64,000 nucleotides of DNA from Roseovarius sp. (GTDB lineage: Bacteria; Pseudomonadota; Alphaproteobacteria; Rhodobacterales; Rhodobacteraceae). Below, in pieces: positions 18,718 through 31,180 of the stretch. Under the pieces are notes generated by a model. That model did no database searches, was not told the DNA's origin, and worked only from the letters and a program-made list of their open reading frames with translations. Position numbers and translations under genes: made by a program. The stretch lies in NCBI GenBank assembly GCA_027493545.1, contig JAOSKR010000002.1, positions 930,001 to 994,000 of the forward strand, given 5' to 3'. How positions within the stretch are numbered: position 1 is the stretch's first letter; each line of letters opens with the position of its first letter.

Positions 18718-20052
18718 ATGCGCCTGTTCCCGATCCTTGCCGCCATTGTGGCAATCGCGGCGATCTATATGCTCGTGTTCGAGCGCGACCGGCTGGCGAC
18801 GTTGCTGGCGCCGGGCGGGGAGGCCGTCACCACCGCGAAGGCCGCCGCCCCGGCGCCGGACGCCGCCGCCGCCGCGCCCGCCGACACCGGCGGGGCGCCC
18901 GTTGGCGTGGTTGTCCTGCGCTCCACCGCCCGCCAGATCGACCGTGCCGTCACCCTGCGCGGGCGCACCGAGGCCGACCGTCAGGTCGAGCTGCGCGCCG
19001 AGACCAGCGGACAGGTGGTCTCGGACCCGCTGCGCAAGGGCGCGCTGGTCGAGGCCGGCCAGACGCTCTGCGCCATCGACCCCGGCACCCGCGCCTCCGA
19101 TCTCGCGACCGCCCGCGCCCGGCTGGCCGAGGCCCGTGCCCGGGTGCCCGAGGCCGAAGCGCGCAAGCCCGAGGCCGAGGCGCGCGTCGACGAGGCAAGG
19201 GCGCGGGTCACCGAGGCGCAATCGCGCCTCGAGGAGGCCGAGATCAACTACACCGCCGCCAGCAAGCTCGGCGAGCAGGGCTTTGCCGCCGAGACCCGCG
19301 TCGCCGCCACCCGTGCCGCGATGCGCGGCGCCGAGGCGGCGGTGGTCAGCGCCCGCGCCGGGCTCAAGGCCGCGCAATCGGGGCTCAAGGGCGTCGCCGC
19401 CGGGATCGAGGCCGCCCGCGCCGGGGTCGAAAGCGCCCGCGCCGCCGTCGCCGCCGCCGAGCGCGAGATCGCGCAGCTGAGCATTACCGCGCCTTTCGGC
19501 GGACTGCTGGAAAGCGACACCGCCGAGCTGGGCAGCCTGCTGCAGCCCGGCGACCTCTGCGCCACGGTGATCCGGCTCGATCCGATGGTGCTGGTGGGAT
19601 TCGTGGCGGAAACCGAGGTCGGCCGGGTCAGGGTCGGCGCCGCCGCCACCGCCCGGCTGGCATCGGGCGAGACCGCGACGGGAGAGGTGGTGTTCGTGTC
19701 GCGCGCGGCCGACCCGGCGACACGCACCTTCCGCGTCGAGGCCCGCGCCGCCAACCCCGACTTGGTCTTGCGCGACGGCCAGACCGCCGAAATCAGCATC
19801 GAGGCCGACGGCACCCTGGCGCATCTTTTGCCGCAATCGGCGCTGACGCTGAGCGACGAGGGCACGCTCGGGCTGCGCACGGTCGATGCCGAAAACCGCG
19901 TCCACTTCGCTCCCGTCACGCTGGTGCGCGACGCCCCCGACGGGGTCTGGGTCACCGGGCTGCCCGACGTGGCCGACGTCATCGTGATCGGCCAGGAATA
20001 CGTCTCCGAGGGCGTGCAGGTCGCGCCGAGCTATCGCGAGATCGGCCAATGA
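18718..20052 (+). CDS. RND efflux periplasmic adaptor (HlyD / MFP family)
   Basis: Membrane fusion protein linking an RND pump to an outer-membrane channel. The 444-residue product has an N-terminal anchor helix (LFPILAAIVAIAAIYMLVF), an Ala/Pro linker, the lipoyl half ETSGQVVSDPLRKGALVEAGQTLCAIDP, a long alpha-hairpin with heptad-like Glu-Ala-Arg repeats (about 130-245), then SITAPFGGLLESDTAELGSLL and the beta-barrel domain. The stop overlaps the RND gene as ATGA. Likely controlled by the palindromic promoter upstream. Confidence 0.92.
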   Translation: MRLFPILAAIVAIAAIYMLVFERDRLATLLAPGGEAVTTAKAAAPAPDAAAAAPADTGGAPVGVVVLRSTARQIDRAVTLRGRTEADRQVELRAETSGQVVSDPLRKGALVEAGQTLCAIDPGTRASDLATARARLAEARARVPEAEARKPEAEARVDEARARVTEAQSRLEEAEINYTAASKLGEQGFAAETRVAATRAAMRGAEAAVVSARAGLKAAQSGLKGVAAGIEAARAGVESARAAVAAAEREIAQLSITAPFGGLLESDTAELGSLLQPGDLCATVIRLDPMVLVGFVAETEVGRVRVGAAATARLASGETATGEVVFVSRAADPATRTFRVEARAANPDLVLRDGQTAEISIEADGTLAHLLPQSALTLSDEGTLGLRTVDAENRVHFAPVTLVRDAPDGVWVTGLPDVADVIVIGQEYVSEGVQVAPSYREIGQ

Positions 20053-23000
20053 CCGGCATCGTCGACTGGGCCGCCGCGCGCGCCCGGATGATCGTCGCGC
20101 TGATCGTGCTGTCGATTCTCGCCGGCGCGCTCGCCTATGTCGGCCTGCCCAAGGAGGGCGAGCCCGACATCGAGATCCCGGCACTCTTCGTGTCGGTGGA
20201 TTTCCCCGGCATCTCGGCCGAGGACAGCGAAAAGCTGCTGGTCAAGGTGATGGAGGCCGAGCTGTCCGATCTCGACGGGCTCGACAAGATGACCGGCACC
20301 GCCGCCGAGAACTATGCCGGCGTGGCGCTGGAGTTCGAATTCGGCTGGGACAAGACCAAGACCATGGCCGACGTGCGCGACGCCATGAGCGCGGCCGAGG
20401 CCAAGTTTCCCGAGGGCGGCGAGAAATACCAGATCACCGAGATCAACTTCAGCGAGTTCCCGATCATCGTCGTCTCGCTTTCGGGCGCGGTGCCCGACCG
20501 CACCATGGTGCATCTGGCGCGCGACCTGCAGGACCGGCTGGAGGGGCTGGAGCCGGTGCTCGAGGCCGGCATCGCCGGTGACCGCGAGGAGATGGTCGAG
20601 GTGCTGCTCGACCCGCTCAGGCTGGAATCCTACAACGTCACCGCCACTGAGCTGATTAACGTGGTGCGCAACAACAACCTGCTCATCCCGGCCGGCGATG
20701 TCGACACGCCCGAGGGCTCGTTCTCGGTCAAGATCCCGTCCTCGTTCGACGGTCCGCGCGACATCTACGACCTGCCGATCAAGACCAATGGCGACCGGGT
20801 GGTGCGGCTGGGCGATCTCGCGACCATCAACCTGACCTTCGAGGACCGCACCGGCACCGCGCGCTTCAACGGCGAGAACACCGTTGCGCTGCAGGTGGTC
20901 AAGCGCAAGGGCTTCAACATCATCGACACCGCCCAGCTGGTGCGCCGCACCGTCGCCGCGGCCGAGGCGGAATGGCCGGACCAGTTGCGCGCGGCGGTGC
21001 GGGTCTCGATCTCGAACGATCAGTCCACGGTGATCGAATCGATGGTCAGCCAGCTCGAGGGCTCGGTACTGACCGCCATCGCGCTGGTGATGCTGGTCAC
21101 GCTGGCGGCCCTCGGCATCCGCCCGGCGCTGCTGGTAGGCTTCGCGATCCCGACCTCGTTCCTTTTGTGCTTCGCGCTCCTGGCGGTAATGGACGTGGCG
21201 ATCTCCAACATCGTCATGTTCGGACTGATCCTGGCGGTGGGGATGCTGGTCGACGGGGCGATCGTGGTGGTCGAATACGCCGACAAGCGCATTGCCGAGG
21301 GCGAGGGCCCGATGCATGCCTATGTCGGCGCCGCCAAGCGCATGTTCTGGCCGGTGGCCAGTTCGACCGCGACGACGCTCTGCGCGTTCCTGCCGATGCT
21401 CTTCTGGCCCGGGGTGCCGGGGCAGTTCATGGGCATGCTGCCGGTGACGCTCATCTTCGTGCTGCTGGCCTCGCTGCTGGTGGCGCTGGTCTTTCTGCCG
21501 GTGATGGGGGGGGTCACCGGCCGCGTCGAGCGCTGGTTCGACATCCGCATCCGCCAGATCGCGCACGGGTTCTGGCTGTGGCACTGGTCCTGTTCCCGCT
21601 GGCCGCGGGCGCGATCATGGCCGCCGCCGCGGGGGCGCCGCCGCTGCTGGCGGAGATCAACGCCCGCTTCGCGGCGATGGACGGCGCCAGCCTTCTGGGT
21701 TCGGTGGTGCCGACCCTGGCGACGGTCTTCGTGCTGGCGCTTGGCGTGGTGGCGATCGCCGCCGCCGGGGTGGCCGGCGTCGTGGCCGCGCTTCTGGGGC
21801 TGATGGCGGTGCCGCGGCGGCTGCGCTACGGGCTGCGCTGGCTCGGGGCCCGGCTCTGGCCGCGTCCGCCCGAGCGGCTGCGCGCGGGCCACCGCCGCAC
21901 GCCCTTCGGCCGGCTGATCCGCCTTGTTGCCGGCAACCCGGTGGCGCCGCTGCTGACCTTCGGGGCGATCTTCGTCTTCGTCGGCACGGTGCTGATGTTC
22001 TACATGAACAACAACAACGGCACCGAGTTCTTCGTCGAATCCGAGCCCGAGAACGCCATCGTCTATGTCCGCGCCCGCGGCAACCTGTCGATCGGGCAGA
22101 AGGACGCGCTGGTGCGCGAGGTCGAAGAGATCGTGCGCACCCATCCCAATGTCCGCAACGCCTTTGCCTTCGCCGGCGAAAGCGGGCTCAACAACAACAC
22201 CGGCGGCGCCCAGCCGCCACGCGACACCATCGGTCAGGTGCAGGTGGAACTGGTCAAGTGGAAGGACCGCCCCAAGGTCAGCGAGACCTGGTTTACCCTG
22301 CCGCTGATCGGCACCGAGGTGGCCCGTGACGTCGTCGCGCCCGAGGCGGACGGCGACCGCACCATCGACGAGCTGACCGCCGCCCTGTCGCAGATCCCAG
22401 GCATCAGGATCGAGATCCTCGCGCTTGAACTGGGGCCGGCCTCGGCCAAGCCGGTGCATCTGCGCATCAAGGGCGACGACTGGGACGAGCTCGTGGCCTT
22501 CACCGAGGAGGTGCGCCACAAGTTCGAACAGACCCGCGGGCTCGACCTGATCGAGGACACCCTGCCCCTGCCCGGTATCGACTGGCAGATTGACGTCGAC
22601 GTGGAAAAGGCCGGCCGCTTTGGCGCCGACGTCGCCACCGTGGGCGCGATGGTGCAACTGGTCACGAGGGGGCTCTTTCTCGACACCATGCGGGTGCCGA
22701 GCTCGGACGAGGAGATCGAGATCCGCGTGCGCCTGCCCAAAAAGGACCGGGTGCTTTCGACCCTCGATACGCTGAGGGTGCGCACCGAGGGCGGGCTGGT
22801 GCCGCTGTCGAATTTCGTCACCCGAACTCCGGTCGAGAAACTGGCGCAGATCGACCGCATCGACCAGACCCGGTTCTTCGACGTCAGGGCCGCCGTCACC
22901 GCCGGTCTCAGCAAGACCGTGACCGACGCGGCGGGCGACACCAGGACGGTGCCGATCACCGCCAACGAACGCATCGCGACGCTGACCGAATGGCTGGAAA

Positions 23001-23836
23001 GCGGCGTCGTGCCCAGGGGCATCGGCTATGAATGGACCGGCGACCAGGAGGATCAGGAGGAATCGGCGGCGTTCCTGCAAAAGGCCTTCGCCGGCGCGCT
23101 GGGGCTGATGTTCATCATCCTGCTGGCGCAGTTCAACAGCGTCTACAATGCCGTTCTGGTGTTGGCGGCGGTGGTGCTCAGCACCACCGGCGTGCTGATC
23201 GGGATGCTGACCATGAACCAGCCCTTCTCGATCATCATGACCGGCACCGGCATCGTCGCGCTGGCGGGCATCGTGGTGAACAACAACATCGTGCTGATCG
23301 ACACCTATCAGGAATATTCGCGCTACATGCCGCGCATCGAGGCGATCATCCGCACCGCCGAGGCGCGCATCCGCCCGGTGCTGCTGACCACCATCACCAC
23401 CATGGCCGGCCTCACCCCGATGATGCTGGGCATCAGCCTCGATTTCGCCGAAGGCGGCTATTCCGTCGACAGCCCCACCGCGCTGTGGTGGAAGCAGCTT
23501 GCCACGGCGGTGGTGTTCGGGCTCGGCATCGCCACGGTGCTGACGCTGGTCTTCACGCCGGCGATGCTGGCGCTCAGGGTCTGGGCGGGCACCTATCTGA
23601 TCTGGGGCGCGCGGCTGGTGGCGCGGCTGACCACCGGGCGGCGCAGCCGGCTGGCGCGCGACTGGGCGCTGGAACGCGCCGCGCGCCGGCTGCGCGCACC
23701 CGAGATCGTCTGGGAGGACGAACGCGACACCGAAACCGCCTTTGCCCCCGAACTGGGCGAGGACGGCCCCAGCCTCGACGAGTTCCGCCGCGTTCTGGGG
23801 ATGCGCAACGGCAACCCGCTCAAGGCGGCCGAGTAA
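20049..23836 (+). CDS. RND efflux transporter permease (single frameshift)
   Basis: Proton-driven inner-membrane efflux pump of the HAE1/AcrB superfamily, about 1262 residues when repaired. The first part (20049 to about 21580) has the first membrane helix, the periplasmic porter domain and membrane helices with VGMLVDGAIVVVEYADK, holding the essential intramembrane Asp, and AVASSTATTLCAFLPM-like helix 6. The second part continues in another frame with a second porter domain and helices including GIVALAGIVVNNNIVLIDTY. A missing base near 21571-21582 (for example CTGTGG for CTGGTGG) accounts for the break. The substrate is unknown; no outer-membrane channel gene is adjacent. Confidence 0.9.
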
Positions 23837-24082
23837 CCGGCAACGCGGGCACACAAGCGCCGTGCTGCCCACCACCGGTGGCGATTCGGCGATCAGATAT
23901 CCGCAAGACGGCTCGGGTCTCCCGATCCGGGACAATCATCCGCCAGCGACGGGATTGCCGCCGGGACAGACACCAAAGTCCGTGCAAACGGGTGCAAAAG
24001 GCGCGCCGCATTTGCCGCGGCCGCACGGAATATGGCAGAATTGCGGCGGTTGGGTATCTGTATCAATTCGGAGAGACGGGTC

Positions 24083-24309
24083 ATGAAGGCACGCATCATA
24101 ACGCTCGGCTGCACCGCCGGGATATACCTCGGCGGCACCATGTCCGCCTCGGCACAGGGGGGTGGGACCGCGTCTGCCAGCTTCACCGCCGCTATTGCGG
24201 CGGCGGCTACGACGTGCCCGAGATCGACGTCTCGAGCGGCCTTCTGGCGGTCGCGGCGGTCGCGGCCACGCTGGCGCTGGTGTGGGAACTGCGCCGCCGC
24301 CGGGGCTGA
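24083..24309 (+). CDS. VPEID-CTERM sorting-domain protein, exosortase E substrate (single frameshift)
   Basis: A tiny secreted protein, 75 residues after repair. It starts with a signal peptide (MKARIITLGCTAGIYLGG, probable cleavage after SASA), then about 20 residues with two Cys (CQLHRRYC), then the sorting signal: VPEID at 45-49, a hydrophobic helix (SSGLLAVAAVAATLALVW) and the basic tail ELRRRRG. The signal peptide and the sorting domain are in different frames; adding one G to the run at 24157-24162 joins them. The gene ends 21 bases from exosortase E on the opposite strand. Cargo role is unknown; recognition by XrtE is inferred from the named family pairing. Confidence 0.85.
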
Positions 24310-24330
24310 CCGGGACCAGGCGGGGGTTGA

Positions 24331-25896
24331 TCAGATCAGCCCCCAGTCACCCCGCCACGCCGCCACCGCGGCGATGAGCGCGTTGGCGACGGCATGGGCA
24401 GCAACGGCGTCGATCAGCCGCCCGCGCCGCAGATAGACCAGGGCAAAGATCACCCCCGCCAACCCGGCGGCGACAAAGCGGCCGTGCAGCGCCGCAAAGA
24501 GCGCGGCCGAGACCGCCACCGACATCACCCGCCGCGCCGGGGAGTCCCCGTCGAGGCGCCGCTGCACATAGCCGCGAAAGAAGAGCTCCTCGACCGCCGG
24601 CACCAGCAGCACCGTGCCCGCGATGCGGATCATCGCCCAGAGCACGAAAGCCACCGGAGAAAGCGCCAGTAGCGCCACCGGTGCGGGGGCCGGGGCCGGC
24701 GCGGTCCAGACCCAGCCCAGCCCCACCACCGCTCCGGCAAGTAACGCCGGCGCGTCAGGCCGCGCCAGCAGGGGCACCAGCGCCCGCCGCCCCCACCAGA
24801 GCGCCGCCGCCTGCACCGGATAGGCCAGCTCGGGCGTGGTCCAGAACGCCTGCGCGATCACGCCCGAGACCATGAAGACCACGAAAGGCACGATGCGGGT
24901 GGCGATCTCGTCCTCGGCCAGGGGCGACGCGGGCGCGGACGCCGCCCCGCCGGGGCGATGCAGCCACGCCAGCCGGTCGGCGGCGACAAGCACGGCGAAA
25001 GCCAGCACCATGAAGAAGAGCCAGCCGGCAAAGCTGTGAAACCCGTTCTCGGCCAAAGCGGGCGAGACATGGGCACCGATCAGCACCAGCGCGGCGATGC
25101 GCAGCACGTTGAGCGCCCAGCTGAGCGCCAGCGCCACCGGCAGCACCGCGCCCCAGAACCGCCCCATCCGCAGGCTGTCACGAAAGAGCCAGGCATAAAC
25201 GCCCATGAAGGCGGAAATGAGCGCGAAGCCCTCGACGCCCGAGCACGACTGCGCCACCGCCACGGCAAAGCCACCGGTGCCGATGACGTGCATCTCGGGC
25301 AGCACCAGCACCTCGGCCGAGACCGCCGACAGCACGGCCGCCGCGGCGGCAAAGGTGACCTCGGTCAGCACGCCCCCGTCCCAGAGCGGGCCGAGAAGCG
25401 CGGCGACATCAGGCAGCACCAGCGCAATCACCGCGATCGCCGCCAACACGCCCGCCCGCCCCCGCAGCCAGCCCGCCCACGCAGCCGGCGCCGCGAGCCA
25501 GAAAAGCCCCGAGACGACCGCCGCCAGCCCGCCGGCGGCAAGGACCACCAGCACCCGGGCGAAATGCGCGTTGAGCTCGGCTGGCGCGATCACCGCAAGC
25601 GGTGCAAAGATCGCCGCCACCGCCAGTGCGTGCATCACCGCCCAGCCCCGCCCGCCGCCCGCCCGCGCCGCGGCGATGGCCAGCAGGCCGGCCCGCGCAG
25701 CCGGCACCGCCCAGAGCCAGAGCGTCATCAGTGCCCCCAGCGACAGACCCCGCACCGCCGCGCCGCGCAGGCCGCGGCAGGCGGTCTCGACGCCGGTGAG
25801 ACGGCACTCGACCGGCGCCAGCACCTGGTAGGCCAGCACGATCAGCACCGCCTCGGCGGCGAAAAGGCCGCATATCAACCAGACCCGTTTCGGCAT
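24331..25896 (-). CDS. xrtE: Exosortase E / CPBP intramembrane protease fusion (VPEID-CTERM system)
   Basis: A polytopic membrane protein of about 521 residues that should cleave and re-attach VPEID-CTERM proteins. The exosortase core shows the Cys-Arg-His set: Cys218 in AQSCSGVEGF, Arg266 in NVLRIAAL and His287 in NGFHSFAGW. The C-terminal third is a CPBP (Abi-type) protease with Glu-Glu 436-437 in EELFFRGY, His471 in LHGRF and His501 in HAVANAL. This fusion is the hallmark of XrtE. The start at 25896 (MPKRVW) is chosen by family opening; an ATG four codons upstream is equally usable. The adjacent small gene encodes its likely substrate. Confidence 0.92.
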   Translation of the reverse strand: MPKRVWLICGLFAAEAVLIVLAYQVLAPVECRLTGVETACRGLRGAAVRGLSLGALMTLWLWAVPAARAGLLAIAAARAGGGRGWAVMHALAVAAIFAPLAVIAPAELNAHFARVLVVLAAGGLAAVVSGLFWLAAPAAWAGWLRGRAGVLAAIAVIALVLPDVAALLGPLWDGGVLTEVTFAAAAAVLSAVSAEVLVLPEMHVIGTGGFAVAVAQSCSGVEGFALISAFMGVYAWLFRDSLRMGRFWGAVLPVALALSWALNVLRIAALVLIGAHVSPALAENGFHSFAGWLFFMVLAFAVLVAADRLAWLHRPGGAASAPASPLAEDEIATRIVPFVVFMVSGVIAQAFWTTPELAYPVQAAALWWGRRALVPLLARPDAPALLAGAVVGLGWVWTAPAPAPAPVALLALSPVAFVLWAMIRIAGTVLLVPAVEELFFRGYVQRRLDGDSPARRVMSVAVSAALFAALHGRFVAAGLAGVIFALVYLRRGRLIDAVAAHAVANALIAAVAAWRGDWGLI

Positions 25897-25938
25897 CGTT
25901 CCCGCCATGCCCGTTGCCCATCCCGTCGCATCGCAATC

Positions 25939-26007
25939 CCCGCCCCGGGCTTGACCCGGGGCCTCTGCCCCTGGTTGCACGGGGCCCCGGGTCAAGCCCG
26001 GGGCGGG
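25939..26007. repeat. Palindromic repeat, 25-nt perfect arms
   Basis: Arms 25939-25963 and 25983-26007 are exact reverse complements of each other with a 19-base loop. The arm sequence (core CCCCGGGCTTGACCCGGGGC) recurs with small changes at 50698-50766 and as single arms inside the elements at 37585 and 63322. It lies just upstream of xrtE. Looks like a REP-type dispersed repeat. Confidence 0.8.
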
Positions 26008-26189
26008 AGTTTCCGGTTGAGCCGGGTAGTCCACAAACCTGTTGATTTCATGGCGGATCGCGGGTGAATCCGGTGCGATCGCAAAACCTCCGGCTCGTGT
26101 CGCGTGGACGTTCCCGCCAGCGGGCACCGCGGGCGGCATCCCCGGACTGGCGCCGGCTGCGGCATGTTCCCCTCATCGCCCTTCTTCGC

Positions 26190-28022: not shown

Positions 28023-28099
28023 GATGTCTTCTTACCGGGATGCCGGCATGACATAGCCCCGCGCGGCGCCGCGGGCCAGTGCCGATCCGCGGGCGCGGT

Positions 28100-29579
28100 C
28101 TATTGCGGTACGGTGAAGACCTGACCGGGGTAGATCAGGTCGGGGTCGCGGATGCGGTCGCGGTTGGCCTCGAATATGCGCACATAGAGGATGCCCTCGC
28201 CGTAGCGGTCGCGCGAGATCGCCCAGAGCGTGTTGCCCGGCTGCACGGTGATGGCCTCGATCCGCCGGCCAATGCGATCCGCCGCCAGAAGCGAGCGATC
28301 CTCGCGCTTGAACGGGGGTCTCGACGCGCGAAACCACGGTGCCGCCCTCATCGACCTGATCGATGCGCAGGGTATAGACGCCGGCATCGACCGGCGGCAA
28401 CTCGGCGTCCCAGCTGCCGTCGGGCGCCACCGGCGCGGTGACAACCGGGGTGTTGTCGATGTAGACCCGCACGAATCCGTCACCGGGCGCACGACCGCTC
28501 AGCGCGACATCGCCTTGGGCATCGTAGCTGATCGCGTCGAGCGCCACCACCGACATCACCTCGGGCGGGGTACCGGCGGCGACCGGCGGCTGGATCACCC
28601 GCACGCCGCTGCGATCCGAAAGCAGCACCGCCTGTGACCCGGCGGGCTCGGTCGCAAGTCCCGCCACGGGTTCGGCTGCGGCCACGGATTCGGAGCCGGA
28701 AACGCCCGGTTCGGCACGGTCGGGGGCCGGCGCGCCGGTCTCGTCGGCGACGTCAGCGGTTTCGGGGGTCCGCGGCTCTGCCGCCTGTCCGCTGTCCGCA
28801 CTTTCCGCCGACGTTTCGCCAGTGGTCCGGTCGCGCATCTCCGGTGGCGCGGCGGTATCGGCGCGGGGTTCGTCGCCCGCGCCTGCGCCGGCAGACGGCG
28901 CCATGGGCGCGGCGCGTTCGGGTCCGCCTCCCGCGCCGGCCGGTTCATCGAGCGCCGCCACGGCGCGTGGCGGGGTCGGCGCGATGATGATCTCGTCGTC
29001 CGAGACCGCCTCGGCCCCGCTGGCGGGGTCACGCATCCTGAGCGACAGGATTCGCGGCTCCGCGCTGGGCGGAAGGTCGAGAAAGGCCACGAACTCGCCC
29101 CGGTCGTCGGGGCGCAGGGTGGCGAGCGCCTCCTCGTCGACAAGGACCGAGACATCCCAGCCGGGTTCGGCGCGGCCGGCGACCAGCATCCGCCCGTCGG
29201 GATCGAGCCGGAAAGTGCTGATGGCGGGCACGCCGGCCAGGGCAGGTTTCCGGGGCGCCTCGGTCGCCGGTGGTGTGCCGGGCGCCGCGACCGTGTCGGT
29301 CGCGCTCTCGGGAGTGACAGTCGGCGGGGTGACGGTGTCGGGGGCCGCAATTTCCGGGCTGGCCGCCTCGGCGGGCACGTCCCCGGGGGTTGCGGTTCCG
29401 GAAGCGGCCGGCGCGGCGTCACCGGTATCATGAGTGGCGGGTTGGGGTACGGGGGTGTCCGGCGCATCGGGCCTGAACACCCCGGCCAGATAGAGCGCCG
29501 CGACAAGGACGGCGGCTGCCGCCGCCGCGCCCGCGATCAAGGCGCCCGGCCCGCCCCCCAGTCCAGCCCGCTTGCTCAT
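28100..29579 (-). CDS. Membrane-anchored LysM domain protein (single frameshift)
   Basis: About 492 residues after repair. One N-terminal membrane helix (ALIAGAAAAAAVLVAALYLAG) is followed by a long low-complexity Ala/Pro/Thr region interspersed with Ig-like or bacterial-adhesin-like segments (RKPALAGVPAISTFRLDPDG, VALDAISYDAQGDVALSGRA, VYIDNTPVVTAPVAPDGSWD) and a C-terminal LysM domain (ITVQPGNTLWAISRDRYGEG through YPGQVFTVPQ) that should bind peptidoglycan. The LysM part is out of frame; removing one base from the five-G run at 28314-28318 restores it. The start is uncertain because GGGGAG directly abuts the ATG. Confidence 0.85.
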
Positions 29580-29682
29580 CTCTCCCCTTTTCGTCCGCAC
29601 CCGCCCGCCAGCGCTGTTGCGGGACAGTAGCAACAAGCGTATCGAGGGTCAAAACAACCCTTTCACAAGTTCGAGGACGCCC

Positions 29683-30234
29683 ATGCCAGTGCGATCGGTC
29701 TGTGTCTTTTGCGGCGCACATGCCGGGGGCAACCCGGCTTATGAGGCCGACGCCGAAGCGTTGGGGCGGGCGCTCGCGGAAGAGGGATGGAGGCTGGTCT
29801 ACGGCGCCGGCGATGTCGGCCTGATGGGTGCCGCGGCGCGGGCCGCCAAGACCGCTGGCGGGCTGACGCTGGGGATCGTTCCCGCGCATCTCGCGCAGCG
29901 CGAGGCGGGCCGCTCGGATCCGGCCACCCATGTCGTGACCGAGACCATGCACGAGCGCAAGAAGGTCATGTTCATGAATTCCGATGCCATCGCGGTGCTG
30001 CCCGGCGGCGCGGGATCGCTCGACGAATTCTTCGAGGCGCTGACCTGGCGCCAGCTGGGACTGCATGCCAAACCGGTCGTCCTGCTCGATACCGCCGGCT
30101 ACTGGCGCCCGCTGGTCGCCCTCATCGACCATGTCATCACCGAGGGCTTCGCCGATGCCGGGCTGCGCGACTACGTCACCGTGTGCGGCACCGTGGCCGA
30201 GTTGCGCGCCAGTCTGCGCGCGGCCTTCTCCTGA
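29683..30234 (+). CDS. LOG family protein (TIGR00730-type nucleotide hydrolase)
   Basis: A 183-residue Rossmann-like protein of the family that includes plant LOG cytokinin riboside 5'-monophosphate phosphoribohydrolase. Motifs: VCVFCGAHAGGNPAY at the start, GAGDVGLMG, MHERKKVMF and the diagnostic PGGAGSLDEFFE. In bacteria such proteins hydrolyse nucleoside monophosphates; the natural substrate here is unknown. GAGGA precedes the ATG. Its 3' end overlaps the rarD-like gene on the other strand by about 64 bases. Confidence 0.9.
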   Translation: MPVRSVCVFCGAHAGGNPAYEADAEALGRALAEEGWRLVYGAGDVGLMGAAARAAKTAGGLTLGIVPAHLAQREAGRSDPATHVVTETMHERKKVMFMNSDAIAVLPGGAGSLDEFFEALTWRQLGLHAKPVVLLDTAGYWRPLVALIDHVITEGFADAGLRDYVTVCGTVAELRASLRAAFS

Positions 30235-31092
30235 CGCCAGAACGCGACCGTGTAGATCGCCAGCGCCAGCCAGATCAGGGGAAAGGCCGCCGCGTGCCAC
30301 AAGGTGAAGGTCTCGCGGAAGATCAGGGTGGCGACGAGAAACTGCAGCGTCGGGTTGAGGTATTGCGAGAGCCCCAGCGTCGCCAGCCGCAGCCGCCGCG
30401 CGGCATAGCTGAACATCATCAGCGGCACCGCCGTCAGCGGCCCCGACAGCATCAGCAGCAGGCTGTCGGACAGGCCGCGCCCGAAATATCCCCCGCCCGA
30501 GCCATGTATCCACCACAGCAGGCCCAGCGCGAAGGGCGACAACAGCAGCACCTCGGCGGTGACCGAGACCACCGGCCCCCACCGGGAGCGATTTCTTGAC
30601 CGCTCCGTAGAGCCCGAACGAACCCGCCAGCATCAGCGCGATCCAGGGCGCCGCGCCCAGCCCGAAGGCCAGCAGCCCCAGCGCCAGCGCCGCCAGCGCC
30701 ACCGCCAGGCTCTGCGCCCGGCCGAGCCGTTCACCGAAGAACACCACCCCCAGCAGCACCGACGCCAGCGGAACCGTGAAATAGCCCAGCGACGCCTCGG
30801 TCGCCCGGTCCCACTGGATGGCGGTGATGAACGTGATCCAGTTGGCCGAGATCAGCACCGCCGCCACCGCCAGAACGGCGGCGCTGCGCCGGCACGTCAG
30901 CGCCCCGCGCAACAACCCCGGCCGGCCCTGCACGACCAGCACCGCGAAAAAGAAGACCAGCGACCACAAGGTGCGGTGCGCCAGTATCTCGAGCGGCGGG
31001 ATGTGGTCGATCAGCTTGAAATAGATCGACATCAGACCCCAGATGACGCCGGTACCGAGGATCGCGGCCACCCCTTTGGTACTCTCCGTCAT
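30171..31092 (-). CDS. rarD: RarD-like EamA/DMT permease (single frameshift)
   Basis: An inner-membrane transporter of the drug/metabolite superfamily, 306 residues after repair, with ten predicted helices. The opening MTESTKGVAAILGTGVIWGL, ILAHRTLWSLVFF and ANWITFITAIQWDRATEASLGYF are typical of RarD. The C-terminal half (SVTAEVLLLSPFALG, LSQYLNPTLQFLVATLIFRE) lies in another frame; removing one base from the run at 30576-30580 gives the join KKSLPVGPVVSVTAE. Substrate unknown. Converges on and overlaps the LOG gene. Confidence 0.88.
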
Positions 31093-31180
31093 CTTCCGCC
31101 CTCGTCTTCCGCGCACCCGGCACCGCGCATGCTGTGCTGCCCCGGCGCGCGGGCGAAGGCAAGCCGTTTCGGCGCGCGCG

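Follow-up and report, generated by a model that had tools for sequence, protein, structure and literature searches.

An exosortase E/VPEID-CTERM pair in a Roseovarius genome and the pattern of its very small substrates

In the model proposed for the PEP-CTERM/EpsH system, the exosortase recognises the tail of a protein at the outer face and then hands the protein over to a nucleophile (PMC1569441). PEP-CTERM proteins have been described as always carrying a signal peptide (PMC3237569), and one was present on 97% of them after correction of the start sites (PMC1569441). The accessible parts of PMC11980579 and PMC1569441 do not settle what is attached by bacterial exosortases or what it is attached to; for archaeosortases a lipid anchor has been named (PMC7157517). 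It has further been reported that a CPBP enzyme alone is able to cut MYXO-CTERM tails (PMC11980579). The closest described system, exosortase E/VPEID-CTERM, is catalogued through the models TIGR04162 and TIGR04161. Our literature search, which covered few subscription papers, found no paper on it, and the short substrates may have been described before.

The pair analysed here lies in a window of 64,000 nucleotides and belongs to this catalogued system; it is not a new one, and the part worth following is the wider pattern of the family. As in exosortase E/VPEID-CTERM, both models match far over their cut-offs and one enzyme stands adjacent to one substrate, but the substrate gene of the window is frame-broken in this assembly. 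With PEP-CTERM/EpsH (PMC1569441) the pair shares the tripartite tail and the core of the exosortase family, for which TIGR04178 and PF09721 both score over cut-off. However, its motif is VPEID instead of Pro-Glu-Pro, one substrate match was found rather than many, a CPBP domain is fused to the enzyme, and some substrates of its relatives seemingly lack the signal peptide stated to be general in PMC3237569. The PEP-CTERM model TIGR02595 gave no match in the window genome, and none in the control genomes either. The myxosortases and the JDVT-CTERM enzyme MrtJ (PMC11980579) have the same CPBP motifs, EExxxR and HxxxN, and MrtJ likewise pairs one enzyme with one target, whereas in the window the CPBP domain is fused to an exosortase and the Mrt model scores are below the cut-offs.

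The enzyme gene (24331-25896, minus strand) encodes an exosortase E/protease, XrtE, of 521 residues with an exosortase domain and a CPBP (Rce1-like) domain. TIGR04162 matched it with 560 bits (cut-off 150) over positions 2-516 of 516, and besides PF09721 and TIGR04178 it exceeded the cut-off of PF02517 (66.9 bits, cut-off 22.4). Counting the M at 25896 as residue 1, sequence and alignment place the exosortase residues Cys218 at 25243-25245, Arg266 at 25099-25101 and His287 at 25036-25038, and the CPBP residues Glu436-Glu437 at 24586-24591, all on the minus strand. Cys218, Arg266, His287, E436, E437, R441 and H471 were found in 36/36 rows of a 36-row alignment, in which H501 and N505 were nearly invariant, and the nine catalytic residues including these two were kept in 34/34 rows of a 34-row alignment. 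The preliminary description had read the catalytic residues of both domains correctly, and the CPBP motifs EExxxR (E436 E437 R441), H471 and HxxxN (H501 N505) are present. The predicted structure of XrtE has a pLDDT of 90.1. A Foldseek search with the whole model returned nothing from the PDB at E 0.001 or better, the best hit having an E of 2.0, and the XrtE profile returned nothing from the PDB sequences at E 0.1 or better in a search that also missed any Rce1 structure and is therefore insensitive. From the residues and the confident model, XrtE is predicted to join exosortase and CPBP activities in one chain.

The substrate gene lies on the plus strand. A GGAGAG resembling a ribosome-binding site (24070-24075) precedes the first half (24083-24157), which in the frame of the ATG at 24083 encodes a signal peptide ending in ...SASAQ, as seen from the sequence and from the intact homologue in the genome G260. 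After a run of six G (24157-24162), the VPEID frame continues with a mature core containing two cysteines (WDRVCQLHRRYCGGGYD; 24163-24213), and with the VPEID-CTERM sorting domain and the stop codon (24214-24309). TIGR04161 matched the tail at 24214-24306 on the plus strand with 57 bits (cut-off 33) over positions 1-31 of 31. Since both models match far over their cut-offs, the pair is not a chance finding, and the assignment to these two families made from the sequence is borne out. The two genes are indeed on opposite strands and 21 bases apart, between the substrate stop at 24307-24309 and the XrtE stop at 24331-24333. Each model has a single match in the window genome (profile search; 3.33 Mb in 5 contigs, 91.5% complete).

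G260 is the nearest relative that we found, with 78% DNA identity over 24017-25915. Its homologue is read in one frame of 75 residues, with a 31-residue tail identical to that of the window, a core 60% identical and a signal peptide 48% identical. Intact homologues with a signal peptide, a similar core and two cysteines were also found in G213, G293 and G294, in agreement with the two cysteines described for the window.

We consider it likely, with a probability of about 0.7, that the pair is a dedicated exosortase system in which XrtE processes and transfers a tiny VPEID peptide. The family membership, the conserved catalytic residues, the pairing, the single substrate match and the intact homologues are observed features of the locus and its relatives. 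We found no biochemistry of XrtE in the literature searched, and its reaction is assigned by analogy, as are the export route, the cutting, the transfer, the role of the CPBP domain and what becomes of the peptide. The small protein would be exported by Sec and lose its signal peptide, while its C-terminal helix would hold it in the inner membrane, the RRRR tail lying on the cytoplasmic side. At the outer face, XrtE would recognise VPEID, cut there with its Cys218-Arg266-His287 site, and hand the peptide of about 20 residues to some carrier in the envelope. The fused CPBP glutamic protease would probably clear the leftover helix or assist the cut. This would leave a short peptide tethered to the cell surface, made up of a Trp/Cys head followed by a flexible linker. 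With one enzyme and one substrate of some 57-75 residues, the system is nearly as small as such a system can be. Peptides this short are open to chemical synthesis, and mass spectrometry can read the modified end in full. The substrates seemingly without signal peptide, and the partner adhesin present in one branch, offer two handles beyond the catalogue entry.

Enzyme and tail gene occur together. TIGR04162 matched 37 of the 198 sampled family genomes (24 over cut-off) and TIGR04161 matched 23 (16 over cut-off). Within the genus, XrtE is over cut-off in 24/84 genomes, and a tail gene adjoins it in all 24, including the frame-broken window and G304, which has VTEMD. In a sample of the class, enzyme matches at E 1e-20 or better were present in 3/289 genomes, the window's among them.

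From the loci we collected 78 distinct tail hits and kept 74. The four left out were two IPEL/IPEV matches inside a longer gene (L115; L117/L120), the broken frame of the window, and one L128 copy without a plausible start. Starts and cleavage sites were set by script rules, or by hand for L006 and L110. The signal-peptide-free set was picked by hand from a hydropathy table, with the remaining rows counted as having a signal peptide; on this basis a signal peptide was counted as present in 50/74 (median of 69 residues in total and of 16 in the mature core) and judged absent in 24/74 (median total 57 residues), one of the latter being doubtful (MKHLLC..., G027). The estimated mature part comprises 6-35 residues in 70/74 substrates; the core length of 4 in L020 is a bad cut. 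Tryptophan reaches 6.5% and 9.0% in the substrate cores versus 1.5% in surrounding ORFs, and 15/74 cores contain two or more cysteines. In 253/253 pairs, formed by the window and 22 of the 23 distinct substrates of the same genus (class 2 L088 left out), the core was less conserved than the tail, with mean identities of 0.37 and 0.77. A tail more conserved than the core is as expected if XrtE reads the tail. Taken together, these data suggest that VPEID substrates are tiny, tryptophan-rich and fast-changing, and that some have no signal peptide.

Many of the 24 substrates judged to be signal-peptide-free begin with MFDWFWNGWYGG or MWWDSWRIFFGGG, followed by Gly/Ser-rich linkers into the tail. 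An in-frame stop lies 12 or fewer codons upstream of the chosen start in 13/24, which rules out an in-frame signal peptide for these 13 and not for the other 11. A search of the other frames at these loci gave one weak candidate, which was not signal-peptide-like. On the XrtE tree, built by a quick method and with long branches joined, the signal-peptide state has to change at least 5 times over 63 labelled rows of 68; the five unlabelled rows include L079, whose substrate also seems to be signal-peptide-free. Such peptides would be exceptions to the signal-peptide rule.

Some single loci deserve mention. In L079 (G304), VTEMD replaces VPEMD in the substrate, and the motif search missed it. 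The genome G027 carries four VPEID-type tails (L025-L027, L007), three of them on consecutive small genes beside XrtE; in at least two, no clear signal peptide is seen. In L010 (G048), an APEID-type tail is found on a charged protein of 96 residues, in a genome with no TIGR04162 match.

The window has the two genes in convergent orientation (class 1). In a second architecture (class 2) the small gene and XrtE point in the same direction, and in 15/61 loci examined (L127, L131-L135, L198-L206) they are preceded, on their own strand, by the gene of a large protein. SdrD_B and Big_9 domains were present in the four of these proteins scanned with Pfam, and some carry cadherin-like or weak CBM6 domains. 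Their last 195 residues contain, in 15/15, an invariant Cys, an invariant Gln within xQxAIW and a final C-x-C. The thioester model PF08341 matched 13/15 of these C-terminal domains at E up to 1 (best 3e-7) and was over cut-off in two of four whole adhesins. An AlphaFold model of the domain (pLDDT 85.9) matched seven PDB chains at E 0.001 or better and no others; these belong to thioester domains, 5a0d, 5a0g and 4c0z among them, and to the Cpa tip domain, with a TM of about 0.5. These class 2 adhesins thus resemble the Gram-positive thioester adhesins in their PF08341 matches, their fold matches and the invariant Cys and Gln. They differ in that the domain is C-terminal, before the final C-x-C, in Alphaproteobacteria, and in that the thioester-like profile found nothing among the PDB sequences at E 1. 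No such adhesin was found in the window genome at E 0.001 (profile search; 91.5% complete).

How far this pattern changes the view of the enzyme can be put as one joint reading, which we offer tentatively. XrtE might be a maturation enzyme of minimal peptides and not a general sorter, the head of the peptide being the product, the signal peptide dispensable and, in one branch, a thioester adhesin being added. As part of that reading, each peptide might consist of a head, either aromatic or with two cysteines, joined by a Gly/Ser linker to a disposable tail, and the head would not be a folded protein. At least five gains or losses of the signal peptide may likewise belong to it. If true, a C-terminal thioester adhesin encoded just upstream would, with the peptide, form a covalent adhesion system around an exosortase in Gram-negative bacteria.

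The peptide could also be a message. XrtE would then mature and export a short, fast-diverging signal or antagonist with a disposable tail, and would not be an anchor-attaching sortase. Consistent with this are the estimated mature length of 6-35 residues for 70/74 substrates, the faster divergence of cores than of tails in all 253 pairs, the tryptophan content of 6.5-9% against 1.5% in nearby ORFs, the 24 of 74 substrates judged signal-peptide-free, and a weak hit of XrtE in the MroQ model, with 20.8 bits against a cut-off of 270. MroQ is linked to agr peptide signalling. We nevertheless regard a message as unlikely. Beside the pairs, where most neighbours are unannotated, we recognised neither a receptor nor an immunity gene, and the substrates of exosortases, archaeosortases and rhombosortases seem to stay anchored (PMC11980579).

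The class 2 loci raise the idea that the large adhesin is held on the cell surface by the small protein, as its anchor or cofactor. Besides the 15/61 loci in which adhesin, peptide gene and XrtE are consecutive, the thioester-like profile was found in 13/198 family genomes, 11/13 of which have a VPEI tail gene beside the thioester-like protein, 10/11 with XrtE over cut-off. Against this, the adhesin was not found in the window genome, at 91.5% completeness; 14/24 family genomes with XrtE over cut-off have no thioester-like profile, and in the genus the profile occurs in 1/84 genomes (G259, class 2). Moreover, the loci L128, L139, L140, L141 and L142 have both genes in the same direction with no adhesin within the DNA examined, and the profile occurs without XrtE in G001, G063 and G134. 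Such a role is therefore quite unlikely in our view. In G134 (L225, L264) a VPEI tail gene adjoins the thioester-like C-terminus with no XrtE match, and in G063 (L229) and G001 (L230) neither a VPEI tail gene nor XrtE accompanies it.

Returning to the dedicated system, we asked whether its neighbours take part in it. An RND pump gene and an ATM1-like ABC exporter gene were considered as partners of the pair and judged unlikely. The ABC gene is found in 83/84 genus genomes. Among the best 30 of these 83 matches, the window's own included, 8 loci have XrtE adjoining the ABC gene, 14 have an RND gene within 1.5 kb of it and no XrtE, and 8 have neither nearby. The matched ends of the RND and ABC genes are less than 0.5 kb apart in 11 of the 14 loci and 0.7-1.35 kb apart in the other 3, and none of these 14 genomes has XrtE over cut-off. 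In view of the pairless RND-ABC loci, the pair looks like a cassette-like unit that was gained or lost at this site. An RND pump with its adaptor adjoins the pair in 16/61 loci examined, from several genera, whereas the pair of G260 (L197) has no RND match next to it. We take the RND pump to be a bystander, a functional link being unlikely. The preliminary description had called the pair self-contained; for this architecture the pairless loci support that view, although, given the 16 loci with pump and adaptor, the pair may not be entirely so.

The last point concerns the state of the substrate gene. That its halves stand in different frames, one starting from the ATG at 24083 and the other carrying VPEID, is as the preliminary description had it, and G260 reads through in one frame. 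The description had the gene masked by a frameshift. The break is there, and in our assessment it is most likely an artefact: judged from the sequence, a single-base length difference near the six-G run is very probably an assembly error. We scanned this genome (the window and five other 20-kb stretches) and three relatives (seven 20-kb stretches) for apparent frameshifts by codon usage with frameshift states. In this genome 45 were found in 136 kb of coding sequence (3.3 per 10 kb), 14 of them inside the window, and in the relatives 4 in 117 kb (0.34 per 10 kb); a stricter penalty gave 33 and 3. The assembly-error reading follows from this roughly ten-fold higher density. For this particular base it rests on the rate and on the relatives, as the small gene was too short for the scan to flag. 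The run itself is not conserved (four G in G260, none in G213) and therefore probably has no biological meaning.

A recent true loss of the system in this strain is possible. The small gene would then be a fresh pseudogene and the system of the window dead or dying, a reading to which we give a small chance. It accounts for the two frames in the assembly and for the absence, in the VPEID frame, of any start close enough to the tail to be used, the nearest upstream ATG being 425 codons and the nearest GTG 105 codons before the gene end. However, XrtE is open with every catalytic residue kept, the whole tail and both cysteines are retained, and the excess of frameshifts over the relatives extends to the RND pump gene just upstream, which is likewise split between frames. 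Programmed frameshifting or transcript slippage on the six G at the join, yielding the full peptide, was rejected as barely credible, because the slippery site is not conserved in G260 and G213, whose genes lie in one frame, and frame breaks are common throughout this assembly.

With 14 flagged places in the window, many genes there will look broken. The RND pump gene (20049-23836), a LysM-like gene (28032-29636) and an EamA/RarD-like gene (29428-31116) each seem to be frame-split. A palindromic repeat of the GGCTTGACCCGGGGC type occupies 25936-26023, and similar copies occur on both strands in this genome and in many genomes of the genus.
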